DNA of 64,000 bases, taken from the NCBI RefSeq assembly GCF_026162625.1, contig NZ_JAOTBD010000002.1, forward strand, positions 1 to 64,000. Direction: 5' to 3'. Position 1 is the first letter of the stretch. Every line of letters starts with the position of its first letter. The position numbers and the translations under genes are program-made. Positions 59,919-64,000 of the stretch are shown one piece after another. Source of the stretch: Paracoccus beibuensis. Lineage in GTDB: Bacteria > Pseudomonadota > Alphaproteobacteria > Rhodobacterales > Rhodobacteraceae. Below the pieces are notes generated by a model. The model did not search any database and was not told the origin of the DNA. It worked only from the letters and a program-made list of their open reading frames with translations.

Positions 59919-60608
59919 TCAAGCGCCAGACGAAGAGGGGCAGGGCGCAACGGCCGAATGGTCCGCGATCAGGCCGAACAGCTGCGTAAAGTCGGCAAAT
60001 GCGGCATGGTGCGGCAATTCCGGGATCGGCGTCATACGGTAGCCGCCGGAATAGATCAGGAAGGGGACCGGAACGGCCGCCGCGCAATGGGCATCGAACT
60101 CGCTGTCCCCGACGAAGATGCCGCGTCCGCCGAGCTGGTCGAAGGCGGCGATCAGAGGGGCAGGGTGCGGCTTCTTCTCGGGCAGCGTGTCGCCACCGAT
60201 GACCACGGACATCATGTGGCCGATCCCGAAATGATCGAGGATCACGCGTGTCGGACCCATCGGCTTGTTGGTGCAGATGCCAAGCGGATGACCGCTATCC
60301 GCAAGCTGTCCCAGAACCTCGATGACTCCCGGGAACACCCGCGTCAGCGCCGTGGCATCATGGTACCGGGCCATGAAGGCTGCGATCAGGGTTGGACGGT
60401 GCACCGGGTCGATCCCCGTCGCCGCGATGATCCGGGTCCAGAGAAGCTCGACCCCGCCACCGATGAAGCTGCGCACCCGCTGAAGGCTGAGCGGCGCGAT
60501 CCCATGGCTGCGAAGCACCGTGTTTACGCAGGCATGGATGTCCGGGGCACTGTCGATCAGGGTACCGTCGAGGTCGAAGATGATCGCGCAGGGACGCTTG
60601 CCGCTCAT
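59919..60608 (-). CDS. gph: Phosphoglycolate phosphatase-like HAD hydrolase
   Basis: A 229-residue HAD-superfamily phosphatase of the Gph group. Motif I is AIIFDLDGTLIDSAPDIHAC. The cap has RVRSFIGGGVELLWTRIIAA, motif II GICTNKPMGPTR, motif III EKKPHPAPLI, and motif IV FVGDSEFDAHCAAAVPVP. Phosphoglycolate, released by DNA repair or Rubisco, is the presumed substrate. The ATG at 60608 overlaps the upstream gene's stop (ATGA), so the two are coupled. An earlier in-frame start at 60632 is less likely. Confidence 0.88.
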   Translation of the reverse strand: MSGKRPCAIIFDLDGTLIDSAPDIHACVNTVLRSHGIAPLSLQRVRSFIGGGVELLWTRIIAATGIDPVHRPTLIAAFMARYHDATALTRVFPGVIEVLGQLADSGHPLGICTNKPMGPTRVILDHFGIGHMMSVVIGGDTLPEKKPHPAPLIAAFDQLGGRGIFVGDSEFDAHCAAAVPVPFLIYSGGYRMTPIPELPHHAAFADFTQLFGLIADHSAVAPCPSSSGA

Positions 60609-61159
60609 GCCGTCTTCCACTTGATCGAGCATCCCATCGACGGCACCTGGTCACGCGGACCCTGGCCGGTTTCGGCAACCTGAAGCATCGCCTCGTACAG
60701 CTCTCGTCGGGCGTCGCTTGGTCCCGCGGTGCGGCCCGACGCATCCAGCCGGCCACGGTACTGCAGCTTGCCTTGGGCATTGTAGCCGAAGAAGTCCGGC
60801 GTGCACTCGGCGCCATAAGCTTTCGCGACGGCCTGGCTCTCATCGTAAAGGTACGGAAAGTCGAAGCCATGATCGGCCGCCAGCTTCGCCATGTGCTCCG
60901 GGTCGTCCTCGGGATACTCGACAACATCATTGGCCGAGATGGCGACCACGCCGACGCCATGCGCCTGAAGATCGTGCGCATCCCGGACGATCCGGCCCAG
61001 AACGGACCGGACATACGGACAGTGGTTGCAGATGAACATCACCACCGTTCCGCGAGGGCCCGAGACGTCCGAGAGCCTGTATGTCTTACGGTCCGCACCA
61101 GGAAGCTCGAAGTCATGCCAATGCGCGTTGAAATCGCAAACGGGTGGCGAAACAGCCAT
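60605..61159 (-). CDS. Thioredoxin/AhpC-TSA-fold family protein
   Basis: A 184-residue redoxin-like protein. After FNAHWHDFELPGADRKTYRL comes VVMFICNHCPYVRSVLGRIV with the redox pair C-N-H-C near residues 45-48. The rest follows the alkyl hydroperoxide/TlpA-like fold (VVAISANDVVEYPEDDPEHM, FDFPYLYDESQAVAKAYGAE, GRLDASGRTA). This CNHCPYV group is a thioredoxin-family protein of unspecified role, possibly a peroxide or disulfide reductase. There is no signal peptide, so cytosolic. It is coupled to gph downstream. Confidence 0.87.
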   Translation of the reverse strand: MAVSPPVCDFNAHWHDFELPGADRKTYRLSDVSGPRGTVVMFICNHCPYVRSVLGRIVRDAHDLQAHGVGVVAISANDVVEYPEDDPEHMAKLAADHGFDFPYLYDESQAVAKAYGAECTPDFFGYNAQGKLQYRGRLDASGRTAGPSDARRELYEAMLQVAETGQGPRDQVPSMGCSIKWKTA

Positions 61160-61219
61160 ATCGTCCTCTTCGGTCAGAGGCTTCGAGAATGGACATTGAC
61201 ACGGAGAAGGACAACCCCA

Positions 61220-61327
61220 ATGTCAGAGCTGATAGAGGCTGAACGTGTCAGTCTGTTACATAATGTAGATTATCACGCCAACGCTTTGCGGAAGGTTGGT
61301 TCTATTCTGAGAAGCGACAAACCATGA
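61220..61327 (+). CDS. Possible 35-residue small protein
   Basis: An ATG at 61220 opens 35 codons ending at a TGA (61325-61327). The peptide begins MSELIEAERVSLLHNVDYHA and ends RSDKP. It is charged and could form one amphipathic helix. GGAGAAGG at 61203-61210 is a good ribosome-binding site 9 bases upstream, and a rho-independent-type terminator (61382-61402) follows. The stretch is AT-rich compared with its neighbours. I know no relative. The combination of RBS, ORF and terminator is the only evidence. A non-coding RNA is an alternative reading. Confidence 0.4.
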   Translation: MSELIEAERVSLLHNVDYHANALRKVGSILRSDKP

Positions 61328-61381
61328 TTTGCTGGCTTTTGCAGATCGAGGAGCCGCCTTGGCACATCTCACCGTTCACGA

Positions 61382-61402
61382 GCGCCGCAACGGCGCTTTT
61401 GT
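61382..61402 (+). terminator. Rho-independent terminator
   Basis: AGCGCCG (61382-61388), loop CAA, CGGCGCT (61392-61398) and then TTTTG give a compact 7-bp GC hairpin with a short T tract. It is oriented to end the small transcript from about 61200. Confidence 0.65.
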
Positions 61403-61509
61403 CGCACTTCAGCTTGACCTCGCGGAACTCGGGCGGAAAAGCTGCCTCTGATCTTGCAGTCTCTCATCCGCATCAGCAAGCATTGCTACCATTACCTTGA
61501 GGTTTGTCA

Positions 61510-61535
61510 GGAACTTCGGTCATGCGCCGAGCGTC
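61510..61535 (+). promoter_or_regulatory. EcfG-like promoter candidate
   Basis: GGAAC (61510-61514) is followed after exactly 17 bases by CGTC (61532-61535), close to the alphaproteobacterial EcfG pattern GGAAC-N16/17-CGTT. It is 50 bases before the start of the lipoprotein gene at 61585, consistent with a promoter and short leader. Confidence 0.45.
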
Positions 61536-61584
61536 TGTAGATGATCCGTCGTGTTGACCGACGGACTTGGCAAAGGAGTTGGAC

Positions 61585-61752
61585 ATGCGTATCCCTGCAA
61601 TCGGACTTTGTAGCGTCATCCTGCTGCTGTCGGCCTGTGGCGACACAACCGCCGAACGTGCGGCGACCGGCGGTGTCGCTGGCGCGGTCGTCGGCGGACC
61701 TGTCGGCGCCGCCGTCGGTGGCACGATCGGAGCGACGACCTCTGCGCCCTGA
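61585..61752 (+). CDS. Small glycine-rich lipoprotein
   Basis: A 55-residue lipoprotein. The signal segment MRIPAIGLCSVILLLSACGD includes a lipobox LSAC. The mature part is a Gly/Ala/Val-rich stretch with a glycine-zipper-like pattern (GGVAGAVVGGPVGAAVGGTI), so it may form a membrane helix or oligomer. AAAGGAG is 7 bases before the ATG. The promoter upstream resembles the general-stress class. Small glycine-zipper lipoproteins of this kind are common stress or osmotic proteins (Osm/YmgG-like), but the role here is unknown. Confidence 0.75.
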   Translation: MRIPAIGLCSVILLLSACGDTTAERAATGGVAGAVVGGPVGAAVGGTIGATTSAP

Positions 61753-61851
61753 CGTCGCTGACCAGGCGGACGGCGACCTTGGCTTTCCGTGAGCCTTGCG
61801 GCCGTGCCAGCCATCCCCTACATCTGATCCGAAAGACAGAGGGATCACTGA

Positions 61852-62094
61852 ATGGCGATGGAAGCTCATGACATCGAAGCCCTGATCCGGGCTTCGTTTC
61901 CGCAAGCAAAGATCACGATCACGGATCTTGCGGGCGACGGAAACCACTATGCCGCCGAGGTCGTGGACGAGAGCTTTCGCGGACTGAACCGTGTGCAGCA
62001 GCAGCGTGCAGTTTATGCCGCGCTCAGGGGGCGGATGGATGGCCCGTCGGGTGACCTGCATGCACTTGCGCTGACAACCAAGGCGCCCGACTGA
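61852..62094 (+). CDS. BolA-family protein
   Basis: An 80-residue BolA/IbaG-type protein. The BolA fold covers almost the whole chain: EAHDIEALIRASFPQAKITI, TDLAGDGNHYAAEVVDESF, RGLNRVQQQRAVYAAL, then the C-terminal LHALALTTKAP. The conserved His in DGNHYAAEVV and in the C-terminal LHALALT are the usual cluster ligands. With the monothiol glutaredoxin just downstream, it is expected to form a BolA-Grx 2Fe-2S heterodimer for iron-sulfur trafficking or iron regulation. 59 bases separate the two genes. Confidence 0.92.
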   Translation: MAMEAHDIEALIRASFPQAKITITDLAGDGNHYAAEVVDESFRGLNRVQQQRAVYAALRGRMDGPSGDLHALALTTKAPD

Positions 62095-62153
62095 TCCTTT
62101 GATGCTAATCCCGGCCCGCCATAGGGGGGCTTTCGACCAAAAGGACCGCCCAG

Positions 62154-62516
62154 ATGAGCGAAGTGAAAACCCGGATTCAGGATTTGATCGACAGCAACGA
62201 CGTCGTTCTGTTCATGAAGGGGACGAAGGAAATGCCGCAGTGCGGCTTCTCGAGCCGCGTCGCCGGGGTCTTGAACTACATGGGCGTTCCGTTCCTCGAC
62301 GTGAACGTTTTGGCAGACAGCGATGTTCGGCAGGGAATCAAGGACTTTTCGGATTGGCCGACGATCCCGCAGCTTTATGTGAAGGGCGAATTTGTGGGCG
62401 GTTGCGACATCATCACCGAGATGACGCTGTCGGGCGAACTGGACCAGTTGCTGGATAACAAGGGCGTATCCTTTGACAAAGTGGCCGCCGACAAGATCCG
62501 CGAAGCAAACGCCTGA
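62154..62516 (+). CDS. grxD: Monothiol glutaredoxin, Grx4 type
   Basis: A 120-residue CGFS-type glutaredoxin that binds and transfers 2Fe-2S clusters. The active site is [20 protein letters not shown], with Cys-Gly-Phe-Ser near residue 30. The glutathione-binding [20 protein letters not shown] follows. The usual length and C-terminal [14 protein letters not shown] are conserved. It is paired with bolA immediately upstream, a widely conserved arrangement. Confidence 0.96.
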
Positions 62517-62518
62517 TA

Positions 62519-62533
62519 GTCGTCTTAGACGAC
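62519..62533 (+). terminator. Small hairpin after grxD
   Basis: GTCGTC (62519-62524), loop TTA, GACGAC (62528-62533) follows the grxD stop. The downstream bases are only moderately T-rich, so it is weak as a terminator. Confidence 0.35.
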
Positions 62534-62575
62534 AATTCTCTTGATCTCTACACCTTATGGTGGAAGAGTTTGAGG

Positions 62576-63046
62576 ATGGGACACAGTTTCACATTTGTGA
62601 TCCATGAGCGGGATCACTTCGTGGCGCGGGACATGGGTCAGGGTCTGATCAATGCCGCGCCGGGAAGCTCTGTCTTCCATTCCCCGACAGCGTCGCCCTG
62701 CCCTGCCGAAGTCCTTGCTTTCAGCAGCATCAACGTCCTCATCACAGATGCTTCGGTTGCCGAGGTTGGTGACCTCCCTGTTGCGCATCCTTGGTTGACA
62801 CAAGGCTGGCCCGTCGTGCTGCGGATGGGTTTCGATTCGGTCGACACGATCTGCGCCAAAGGATGGCATGTTCTGACGGCGCCGTTCAATTGGGATGACC
62901 TCCGGGACCTGGTTCAACGCCTGACGTTCATCAGATCGCATCAGGCCGTGACAGAGGACGGTCTTCATCCTCCCGCCGGTATCATTCGCGACCCGGCGGG
63001 TGGTTCGTGCGCCCGCGCCTTTCCTGCAGCTTTGCAGCAAGCGTGA
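62576..63046 (+). CDS. Degenerate receiver-domain-like protein
   Basis: About 156 residues. The order of elements resembles a response-regulator receiver domain: an N-terminal strand (TFVIHERDHFVARDMGQGLI) where the acidic pair would be, then VLITDASVAEV with an Asp at the phosphorylation-site strand, PVVLRMGF at the beta4 position, and AKGWHVLTAPFNWDDLRDLV, where the conserved Lys of the LTKPF motif is replaced by Ala. It is therefore a likely pseudo-receiver with no output domain. The ATG at 62576 is used; a TTG start two codons earlier is possible. Its last 65 bases overlap the convergent gene ending at 62982. Function unknown; a stress-signalling role is only inferred from position. Confidence 0.6.
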   Translation: MGHSFTFVIHERDHFVARDMGQGLINAAPGSSVFHSPTASPCPAEVLAFSSINVLITDASVAEVGDLPVAHPWLTQGWPVVLRMGFDSVDTICAKGWHVLTAPFNWDDLRDLVQRLTFIRSHQAVTEDGLHPPAGIIRDPAGGSCARAFPAALQQA

Positions 63047-63620
63047 CGCCGACCGCAAACGCCCAGATCAGCCTCGTCGTCGTCCTCGTTGCACGAGGGG
63101 CAGTCCCGGGTCCCAAGTCAGCACGATCTCTGGTTGGCGTCGGTAACGCAGGCCCTCCGGCGCGGATGCCGACCGAAGGCAGAGATCCGAATACCCTTCG
63201 CTCTGCATCATCCGCCAGCTTTGCGGCACGATAACTTGCTTCATCCATCAGTGCATGTGCACGGTTCTCGGCCATGTCGACAAGCCGAGACGCCTCGGCT
63301 CGCGCCCGCTCGACCGTCGCATCCGTCGCCAGCGTCGCGCGCGCTTGGACCTCTCTTTTCAGGTCTTCGGTCGTCGGCATTTCGTGATTCCGACGCGACG
63401 ACATCGTGAACAGGATCGCGGCAATCAGCGCAAAGCCCGCACCCATCGCGAGCGACGCAAGCCCTGCCCCCCAGCCAAGCGTTTCTGCCAGAAACGACCA
63501 CAGCGCCGCCAGCAGGAAGCCTGCTCCAATCATTCCGACAATGCCAGCCGCCGCCTTCAGCGCGGCGCGGCGGACTGTGTCGCCCGCCGCCAGTTGCAAT
63601 CGTCTGGCGAAATCGAACAT
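62982..63620 (-). CDS. Phage holin-like (Holin-X type) membrane protein
   Basis: A 212-residue membrane protein. Two adjacent hydrophobic segments near residues 20-50 and 50-75 (AAAGIVGMIGAGFLLAALWS, GAGLASLAMGAGFALIAAIL) form a helical hairpin. A helical cytoplasmic region follows (LKREVQARATLATDATVERA, ARAEASRLVDMAENRAHALM). The layout resembles the actinobacterial putative Holin-X/phage-holin-family proteins, which are chromosomal in many proteobacteria and not phage genes. A further possible helix lies near residue 190 (TRLIWAFAVGVTLAAKL). It is 10 bases from the end of the DUF883 gene, likely an operon. Confidence 0.7.
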   Translation of the reverse strand: MFDFARRLQLAAGDTVRRAALKAAAGIVGMIGAGFLLAALWSFLAETLGWGAGLASLAMGAGFALIAAILFTMSSRRNHEMPTTEDLKREVQARATLATDATVERARAEASRLVDMAENRAHALMDEASYRAAKLADDAERRVFGSLPSVGIRAGGPALPTPTRDRADLGPGTAPRATRTTTRLIWAFAVGVTLAAKLQERRGRTNHPPGRE

Positions 63621-63630
63621 CGCCGGCTCC

Positions 63631-63999
63631 TCAGCGGCGCGACAGCATCAGGCCGATCAGGAAGCCGACGCCGGCCGCGATGCCGAGTGCTTGGGCCGGG
63701 TGGCGGCGAACCATGCCTGACAGCTCGTCATAGCGGTCCTCGGCAAAATGGGCGACGTCTTGCGCCGTCTGCTGTCCGCTATCATAGAGGTGAGCCGCTT
63801 GATGGCGGGCACGTTCTGCGTAGTCCTGGCCTACTTCGCGTGCACGGTTGGCATAATCACGACCCGCCTCCAATGCCTCGCTAGCCAAAGCGGCGCCGCG
63901 ACCGGAAAGGCCGTCTGAGCCCGTATCCTGCGAAAGCTTACCGGTCGCGTAGCGCGCCTCGTCTTCGATCCTGCTTGCGCCGTTCCTGAGGTCGCGCAT
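63631..63999 (-). CDS. DUF883 (ElaB/YqjD-like) membrane-anchored protein
   Basis: A 122-residue protein with a long charged amphipathic helix (ALASEALEAGRDYANRAREV, QDYAERARHQAAHLYDSGQQ) and one C-terminal transmembrane helix (HPAQALGIAAGVGFLIGLML). This is the ElaB/YqjD/YgaM architecture: a stress-induced tail-anchored protein that binds ribosomes in E. coli. The ATG at 63999 is the last codon of the window, so an upstream start cannot be excluded. It lies just before the holin-like gene, in the same direction. Confidence 0.85.
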   Translation of the reverse strand: MRDLRNGASRIEDEARYATGKLSQDTGSDGLSGRGAALASEALEAGRDYANRAREVGQDYAERARHQAAHLYDSGQQTAQDVAHFAEDRYDELSGMVRRHPAQALGIAAGVGFLIGLMLSRR

Positions 64000-64000
64000 C

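Follow-up and report, generated by a model that had tools for sequence, protein, structure and literature searches.

What joins the six genes crowded into the right end of a 64,000-nucleotide (nt) stretch of Paracoccus beibuensis DNA, and what does the receiver-like protein among them do there? The stretch, hereafter the window, comes from contig C22, and coordinates are positions in the whole stretch. Its right end encodes a small lipoprotein, BolA, a Grx4-family glutaredoxin, a single-domain pseudo-receiver, a YqjE-like membrane protein and a YqjD/ElaB-like protein, which a preliminary description had grouped as a candidate for an undescribed stress module. Two units meet here: lipoprotein-bolA-grxD on the left and, on the right, yqjD-yqjE with a convergent pseudo-receiver gene. 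The right unit can be regarded as general-stress material, because the yqjD-yqjE promoter is conserved and homologues of the pseudo-receiver cluster with phyR, whose product is the master switch of the general stress response in Alphaproteobacteria. The term "stress module" does not fit bolA-grxD, since the promoters differ, the linkage is separable and yqjDE were found near grxD only in Paracoccus. The best explanation, to which we give slightly less than an even chance, is that docking by a phosphate-free pseudo-receiver tunes the release of the sigma factor EcfG, with yqjDE as the output.

The yqjD/elaB-like gene (63631-64062, minus strand; 143 amino acids, aa) has its start codon at contig position 64062 and its first ~21 codons outside the window. 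The yqjE-like gene (62982-63620, minus strand; 212 aa), encoding a holin-family-like membrane protein, follows 10 nt behind it. When the pair was checked as a YqjD/YqjE operon, the first product matched DUF883_C above cut-off (35.0 bits against 27) and the second matched PF07332 below it (24.3 bits against 28.4). In Escherichia coli (yqjD-yqjE) and Pseudomonas aeruginosa (PA3040-PA3041), too, a DUF883 gene precedes a holin-family-like one; the present pair differs in its sub-threshold holin-family match. YqjD of E. coli is reported to bind ribosomes and YqjE to be toxic if overproduced, while the yqjDE-type operon of P. aeruginosa is reported to be controlled by AlgU (PMC11302039). A stress sigma factor promoter is common to both operons, AlgU-dependent in P. 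aeruginosa and EcfG-type here.

The EcfG motif published for Sphingomonas melonis is GGAAC-N17-20-GTT (PMC6599016). We scanned upstream regions for GGAAC-N17-18-GTT. Of 66 distinct regions upstream of yqjD, 65 carried it, where shuffled sequences led us to expect 0.49. It was present in 56/56 regions from Paracoccus and 9/9 from outside the genus; the sole miss (L161), a Sulfitobacter-labelled locus booked under the genus and probably a spurious open reading frame (ORF), was kept in the count. The spacer was fixed after spacers of 17 or 18 had been seen, and all controls were then repeated with it. These, read in 260-nt upstream windows, gave no motif upstream of bolA (0/119), grxD (0/123) or yqjE (0/62), one upstream of the lipoprotein gene (1/23) and one upstream of the neighbouring thioredoxin-like gene (1/14); phyR, the positive control, carried it in 18 of 22 regions. 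A looser pattern, GGAA[CT]-N15-19-GTT, matched 64 of 72 yqjD regions, several with the wrong gene or start, and an alternative, GGAAC-N16-17-GTT, matched 26/66 yqjD and 12/22 phyR regions. In P. beibuensis the EcfG-type promoter of yqjD lies at contig positions 64100-64124 on the minus strand, 100 nt beyond the window. Such a pattern is not rare by itself (two copies in a 19-kb stretch against 1.56 expected, and, with N15-18, seven across the window against 3.99 expected); what carries weight is solely its conservation at yqjD. By this motif, yqjDE are putative members of the EcfG regulon.

The same genome encodes a general-stress core on another contig (C6): PhyR, NepR, an extracytoplasmic function (ECF) sigma factor beside nepR, and a HisKA_2 kinase (NF006623, 358.2 bits against a cut-off of 240; PF18557, 51.2 against 25.7; HisKA_2, 81.1 against 22.3). 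The sigma factor matches NF009198 (338.7 bits, cut-off 270), a family named only RNA polymerase sigma factor; family and position together suggest that it is EcfG. A copy of the EcfG motif lies upstream of nepR. The PhyK equivalog was not reached in this genome (235.9 against a cut-off of 750). As a separate observation, a tRNA-His gene stands just upstream of yqjD in three Paracoccus loci (L008, 3129-3205; L098, 15713-15789; L123, 15810-15886); the window's genome showed no such gene at that place.

Could all six genes nevertheless be one co-regulated stress module, running from the lipoprotein gene through yqjD? Both BolA and ElaB have stress links in E. coli, and gene order inside the genus speaks for the idea: the yqjE-like gene was found in 59 of 61 Paracoccus genomes, and in 43 of these 59 the starts of grxD and yqjE are at most 1.2 kb apart. 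In 13 more they lie within 8 kb, and in 3/59 they are more distant or on separate contigs. The grouping of bolA-grxD with yqjDE is therefore more than chance within Paracoccus. Outside it the neighbourhood dissolves: yqjE/yqjD lay near grxD in 17 of 80 named grxD loci (some short on one side), every one labelled Paracoccus (18 are so labelled). Even inside the genus the units are separable. Three Paracoccus loci have a gap of ~4 kb between grxD and yqjE that holds apparent TAXI-TRAP transporter genes (by eye), and the pseudo-receiver gene, where present, remains with yqjE when these split off grxD. A single module including bolA-grxD was rejected, given the absence of an EcfG motif upstream of bolA-grxD, the intervening transporter genes and the lack of nearby yqjDE in the named loci from outside the genus; we consider it very improbable. 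The independent regulation and poor neighbourhood conservation that the preliminary description had named as grounds for abandoning the module are found between the two halves and not within the right one.

The pseudo-receiver gene (62576-63046, plus strand; 156 aa) was followed across genomes. A single-sequence search recovered it in 2/149 genomes only, its own among them, so an alignment query was needed. Within the genus the single sequence matched 25 of 125 genomes; a weak match in genome G002 disappeared with the alignment query, leaving 24/125 Paracoccus genomes, each with a single copy and with a wide score gap between matches and non-matches. In all 24 carriers the gene is near yqjE, as a convergent neighbour in 23 and at a rearranged locus (L185) in one, where yqjE lies across bolA-grxD from it. 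At this locus (genome G049), yqjE, bolA, grxD and the pseudo-receiver gene are all on the same strand, unlike in the 23 others. In Paracoccus, the block of pseudo-receiver, yqjE and yqjD lies apart from phyR.

A search of 394 genomes with the Paracoccus alignment found a homologue in 28 further genomes. Longer stretches around these 28 loci contained phyR in 21; yqjE and yqjD stood beside the homologue in eight, and a lone DUF883-like ORF in one more. These counts bear on the idea that the pseudo-receiver binds the YqjD/YqjE membrane proteins, or the ribosome in hibernation, with its site of action downstream of EcfG and not at the PhyR switch. The Paracoccus loci argue for it, with the gene near yqjE in 24/24 and near phyR in 0/24. 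Outside the genus the balance is reversed (8/28 for yqjE/yqjD against 21/28 for phyR), and most Paracoccus carry yqjDE without a pseudo-receiver, which leaves a partnership with YqjD/YqjE improbable in our judgement.

Modulation of PhyR signalling, the role we favour, draws on the wider linkage. A widened alignment of 38 members was searched against 394 genomes of 393 genera, with a family cut-off of E 1.3e-14 chosen after seeing where hybrid-kinase rows start; the place of phyR in genomes G390, G069 and G417 was taken from examination of the locus stretches. Excluding the window's own genome, 67 matches reached this cut-off, 62 of them with a phyR place listed. phyR lay within 10 kb of the homologue in 45 of these 62, downstream and convergent in 39 of the 45. 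As a control, receivers inside long hybrid kinases were near phyR in 0/26 of the matches listed in the same search. Between E 1.3e-14 and ~3.5e-8, phyR was nearby for 11 of 32 short-frame, three of eight middle-length and none of 26 long matches, counted among matches listed with a known phyR place (absent for 11, 0 and 5, respectively).

An ORF divergent from the homologue and upstream of it starts with a CxxC motif like CxxCPLR in 22 of the 28 loci outside the genus (by eye). Three such ORFs were scanned and are Crp-type regulators, with cNMP_binding and HTH_Crp_2 above cut-off. A Crp-Fnr gene is also reported downstream of phyR in Rhodobacter sphaeroides (PMC5830050). We infer that the pseudo-receiver gene had its earlier home at the general-stress locus, between a Crp/Fnr gene and yqjDE/phyR. 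The 28 loci (L194-L221) also show a conserved element like TGTCAYAGTTWAATGC in the interval that separates the homologue from the divergent Crp-type gene; the pattern occurs in 18/28, and GTTCCA often comes after it with nearly fixed spacing.

Profile libraries do not recognise the pseudo-receiver. Pfam, PHROGs and PADLOC gave it no match, and its single NCBIfam row, an amidase, is meaningless (15.5 bits against 498); PF00072 gave no match for six Paracoccus members and, for six members outside the genus, one weak match (15.2 bits against a cut-off of 30.2). The model built from the 24 Paracoccus members has a receiver strand-helix order, with a predicted local distance difference test score (pLDDT) of 84.4 and a predicted template modelling (TM) score (pTM) of 0.77. 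Foldseek ranks a receiver domain highest for it (E 2.5e-4, TM-score 0.47). In a second structural search the top entry was NtrX, a response regulator (Z 12.8, root-mean-square deviation (rmsd) 2.8 over 123 residues); by their titles, almost all of the rows listed are receivers, response regulators or proteins with such parts. A member from another genus was modelled at pLDDT 88.9, with a best Z of 14.4 and an rmsd of 2.0 over 110 residues. SdrG and PhyR do not appear among the 50 structural-search rows listed, which does not exclude them. The pseudo-receiver is therefore predicted to adopt the (beta-alpha)5 receiver fold.

The active site of this predicted fold appears dismantled. Equivalent positions were derived from the alignment and strand ends. 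Among the 24 Paracoccus members, the phospho-Asp site holds Lys in 19, Gly in two, Ser in two and Asp in one; the second acidic residue is Lys or Arg in 23, and the conserved Lys is Ser, Ala or Thr in all 24, with the next Pro-Phe invariant. The wider 38-member set, a weak alignment with a mean identity of 26%, has Asp at the phospho-site in four and Lys at the Lys site in two. The catalytic residues are thus lost and, judged from sequence, phosphate uptake looks impossible for most members. The nearest relative of the window's protein has Gly at the phospho-site. Such a remodelled catalytic site, with basic residues at acidic positions, could instead bind a small molecule and pass the signal to a partner, as in ShkA, whose pseudo-receiver domain is reported to bind cyclic di-GMP (PMC7010744). 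ShkA REC1 likewise has a receiver fold without a phosphorylation site, although it is part of a kinase and the present protein stands alone. Variation of the remodelled site between members counts against a ligand sensor, which we regard as a long shot.

Conservation of the pseudo-receiver extends to about residue 120, and its final ~35 residues are without counterpart in relatives. The pseudo-receiver and yqjE frames overlap at their 3' ends by 65 nt (62982-63046), and aligned relatives' proteins stop near residue 120-130, without this tail. A sigma70-like pair, TTGATC-17 nt-AAGAGT (62541-62575, by eye), ends 6 nt before the pseudo-receiver start codon. Similar spacing occurs in several Paracoccus loci, and the promoter scan did not flag the window copy. 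A leaderless pseudo-receiver transcript is possible from this placement.

Among solved chains, the closest relatives are general-stress receivers. The 38-member profile placed SdrG first (E 5e-9), followed by four entries at 1.4e-6 to 2.6e-6 that include 5uxw and 4qic, named PhyR; other receivers rank lower. The remaining entries at ranks two to five, 5uxv and 4g97, we take to be PhyR as well, and 3n0r (E 2.7e-4) is presumably PhyR of Caulobacter. A profile comparison with 12 PhyR receivers gave a probability of 92 and E 5.6e-7. SdrG in its turn is reported to have the PhyR receiver as its best structural homologue (PMC5898713). SdrG of S. melonis and MrrA of Caulobacter, the FATGUY regulators, are also free-standing receiver domains. 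They are distinguished by the motif PFxFATG(G/Y) (PMC5964349), which the pseudo-receiver alignments lack. SdrG is reported to need its Asp (PMC5898713), whereas the pseudo-receivers have mostly lost the phospho-Asp, the second acidic residue and the Lys. The family therefore lies outside the FATGUY group, since motif and phospho-site are missing. In S. melonis, sdrG is reported not to lie at the phyR locus (PMC5898713), whereas the pseudo-receiver gene often is, a genomic tie to phyR. Compared with the PhyR receiver domain, the profile is similar, the sigma-like domain is absent and the active site is degenerate.

We therefore favour a role for the pseudo-receiver as a phosphorylation-independent modulator of PhyR signalling, a proposal drawn from sequence, predicted fold and linkage. 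The protein would take no phosphate and would keep enough of an SdrG/PhyR-like surface to dock, with either the HisKA_2 kinase or PhyR/NepR as the likely target. Docking without phosphotransfer might set the threshold of EcfG release, and EcfG would then switch on yqjDE. Under stress, the YqjDE membrane proteins may in turn hold back translation or growth, an effect reported for the E. coli counterparts. The general stress response of Sphingomonas and Caulobacter is reported to run via a phosphorylated single-domain hub, SdrG or MrrA (PMC5898713, PMC5964349). More tentatively still, the pseudo-receiver may be an unrecognised part of the Rhodobacteraceae general stress response, a phosphorylation-incompetent relative of the SdrG/PhyR receivers exerting docking-only control of PhyR-NepR-EcfG and replacing or opposing such a phosphorylated hub.

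Several observations weigh against this proposal. In all 24 Paracoccus carriers phyR is far from the pseudo-receiver gene, on another contig in 20 and at 0.45-1.8 Mb in four. The protein is also dispensable in the genus, being absent from 101 of 125 genomes although phyR is present in 123 of the 125. In the widened search, phyR is not nearby for 17 of the 62 placed matches (a different contig for 13, a distance above 100 kb for four). The window's own member, like a few others, keeps Asp at the phospho-site, and the EcfG motif occurs upstream of pseudo-receiver genes in only 1 of 48 regions. A Paracoccus-only profile gave no receiver above chance against solved chains; it is too diverged for matching them. 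Co-occurrence, at 66/66 homologue genomes with phyR against 188/393 overall (own genome left out), failed its control, as 30 of 31 hybrid-kinase genomes also carry phyR, and was therefore given no weight. The hybrid kinases themselves, with frames of ~860-1040 aa and receivers resembling the pseudo-receiver family, do not have phyR nearby and are perhaps stress kinases.

Linkage of the pseudo-receiver gene to phyR can also be inherited synteny. The gene might then be a passenger, functionally unrelated to PhyR or YqjDE and with some other role. Its patchiness in Paracoccus (24/125) and separation from phyR there would be expected of a passenger, as would the near absence of an EcfG motif of its own (1/48) and a convergent orientation in which the genes are not co-transcribed. 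Adjacency to yqjE or phyR nonetheless persists over many genera despite low sequence identity, the closest profile relatives are general-stress receivers, and the gene stays with yqjE where the transporter cluster parts both from grxD. We accordingly consider a passenger unlikely, if a serious competitor, and retain docking-based modulation of PhyR signalling as the preferred reading.

How the general stress response is wired in Rhodobacteraceae has received little study. Losing phyR is reported to affect membrane and ultraviolet stress in R. sphaeroides, with no effect on the general or oxidative stress response (PMC5830050). Searches of the open-access literature, with subscription papers outside their scope, found no paper on the PhyR receiver domain in Rhodobacteraceae and no connection between PhyR and yqjD. 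For a pseudo-receiver in the alphaproteobacterial general stress response they gave ShkA only. Results for EcfG in Paracoccus were off topic by their titles, and for PhyR, Crp-Fnr and Rhodobacterales the R. sphaeroides study alone, among the matches listed, was titled on PhyR. The suggestion of an undescribed system survives for the pseudo-receiver, of which the libraries and papers searched hold no description, and lapses for the ordinary bolA-grxD pair. With a pseudo-receiver beside phyR in many genera and a neighbouring EcfG-type yqjDE operon, the locus offers a concrete gene and promoter for testing. If the proposal is true, a stress pathway would take its tuning from a defunct relative of the signalling domain that it uses itself.

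The left unit is more conventional. It begins with a 55-aa Gly-zipper lipoprotein gene (61585-61752, plus strand), found 5' of bolA in part of the genus, whose lipobox, LLSAC, was read from the sequence; the protein matches the YMGG Gly-zipper family below cut-off (E 0.0038), and its profile matched in 10 of the 80 named grxD loci. bolA (61852-62094, plus strand; 80 aa; PF01722, 46.9 bits against a cut-off of 25.7) and grxD (62154-62516, plus strand; 120 aa; TIGR00365, 149.4 bits against 117.1; CGFS read from the sequence) are adjacent, and both products score above cut-off as expected of a BolA/Grx4 pair. bolA was detected in 60 of 61 Paracoccus genomes and in 79 of the 80 named loci, and grxD matched in 61/61, with only a weak glutaredoxin match in genome G017. 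The side-by-side arrangement is that of the known bolA-grxD (Grx4) pair and nothing unusual was seen; lipoprotein-bolA-grxD amounts to a standard BolA/Grx4 pair that lacks a general-stress promoter. To its left, an AhpC/TSA-type thioredoxin-like gene (60605-61159; PF00578, 74.1 bits) lies on the other strand and points away from the lipoprotein gene.

The six genes listed in the preliminary description are all retained, supported by family matches, the predicted fold and the ratio of nonsynonymous to synonymous change (pN/pS). Against the nearest named relative, Paracoccus rhizosphaerae (95% for GrxD), pN/pS was 0.01 for bolA, 0.05 for grxD, 0.06 for the lipoprotein gene, 0.22 for the pseudo-receiver gene (113 codons) and 0.32 for yqjE, values that fit expectation for genes under purifying selection. 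A further small ORF proposed there was not supported: 61220-61327 had no match, 61324-61500 had none in Pfam or NCBIfam, and the DNA left of ~61573 does not align to P. rhizosphaerae. An Rfam scan of 60500-64000 gave no match at E up to 1, and a promoter and terminator scan of 60600-64000 was uninformative (no promoters against 0.9 expected, three terminator-like sites against 2.4). A phage or defence origin was also rejected, as the yqjE-like protein had only weak matches in PHROGs (phrog_7198, a holin, E 0.0066) and PADLOC (LeoBC, E 1.4e-4), and the pseudo-receiver had none in either. To the right of the window, at ~65900-69000 of contig C22, overlapping pieces resembling a broken IS66-type transposase (by eye) lie beside a glycosyltransferase-like gene.

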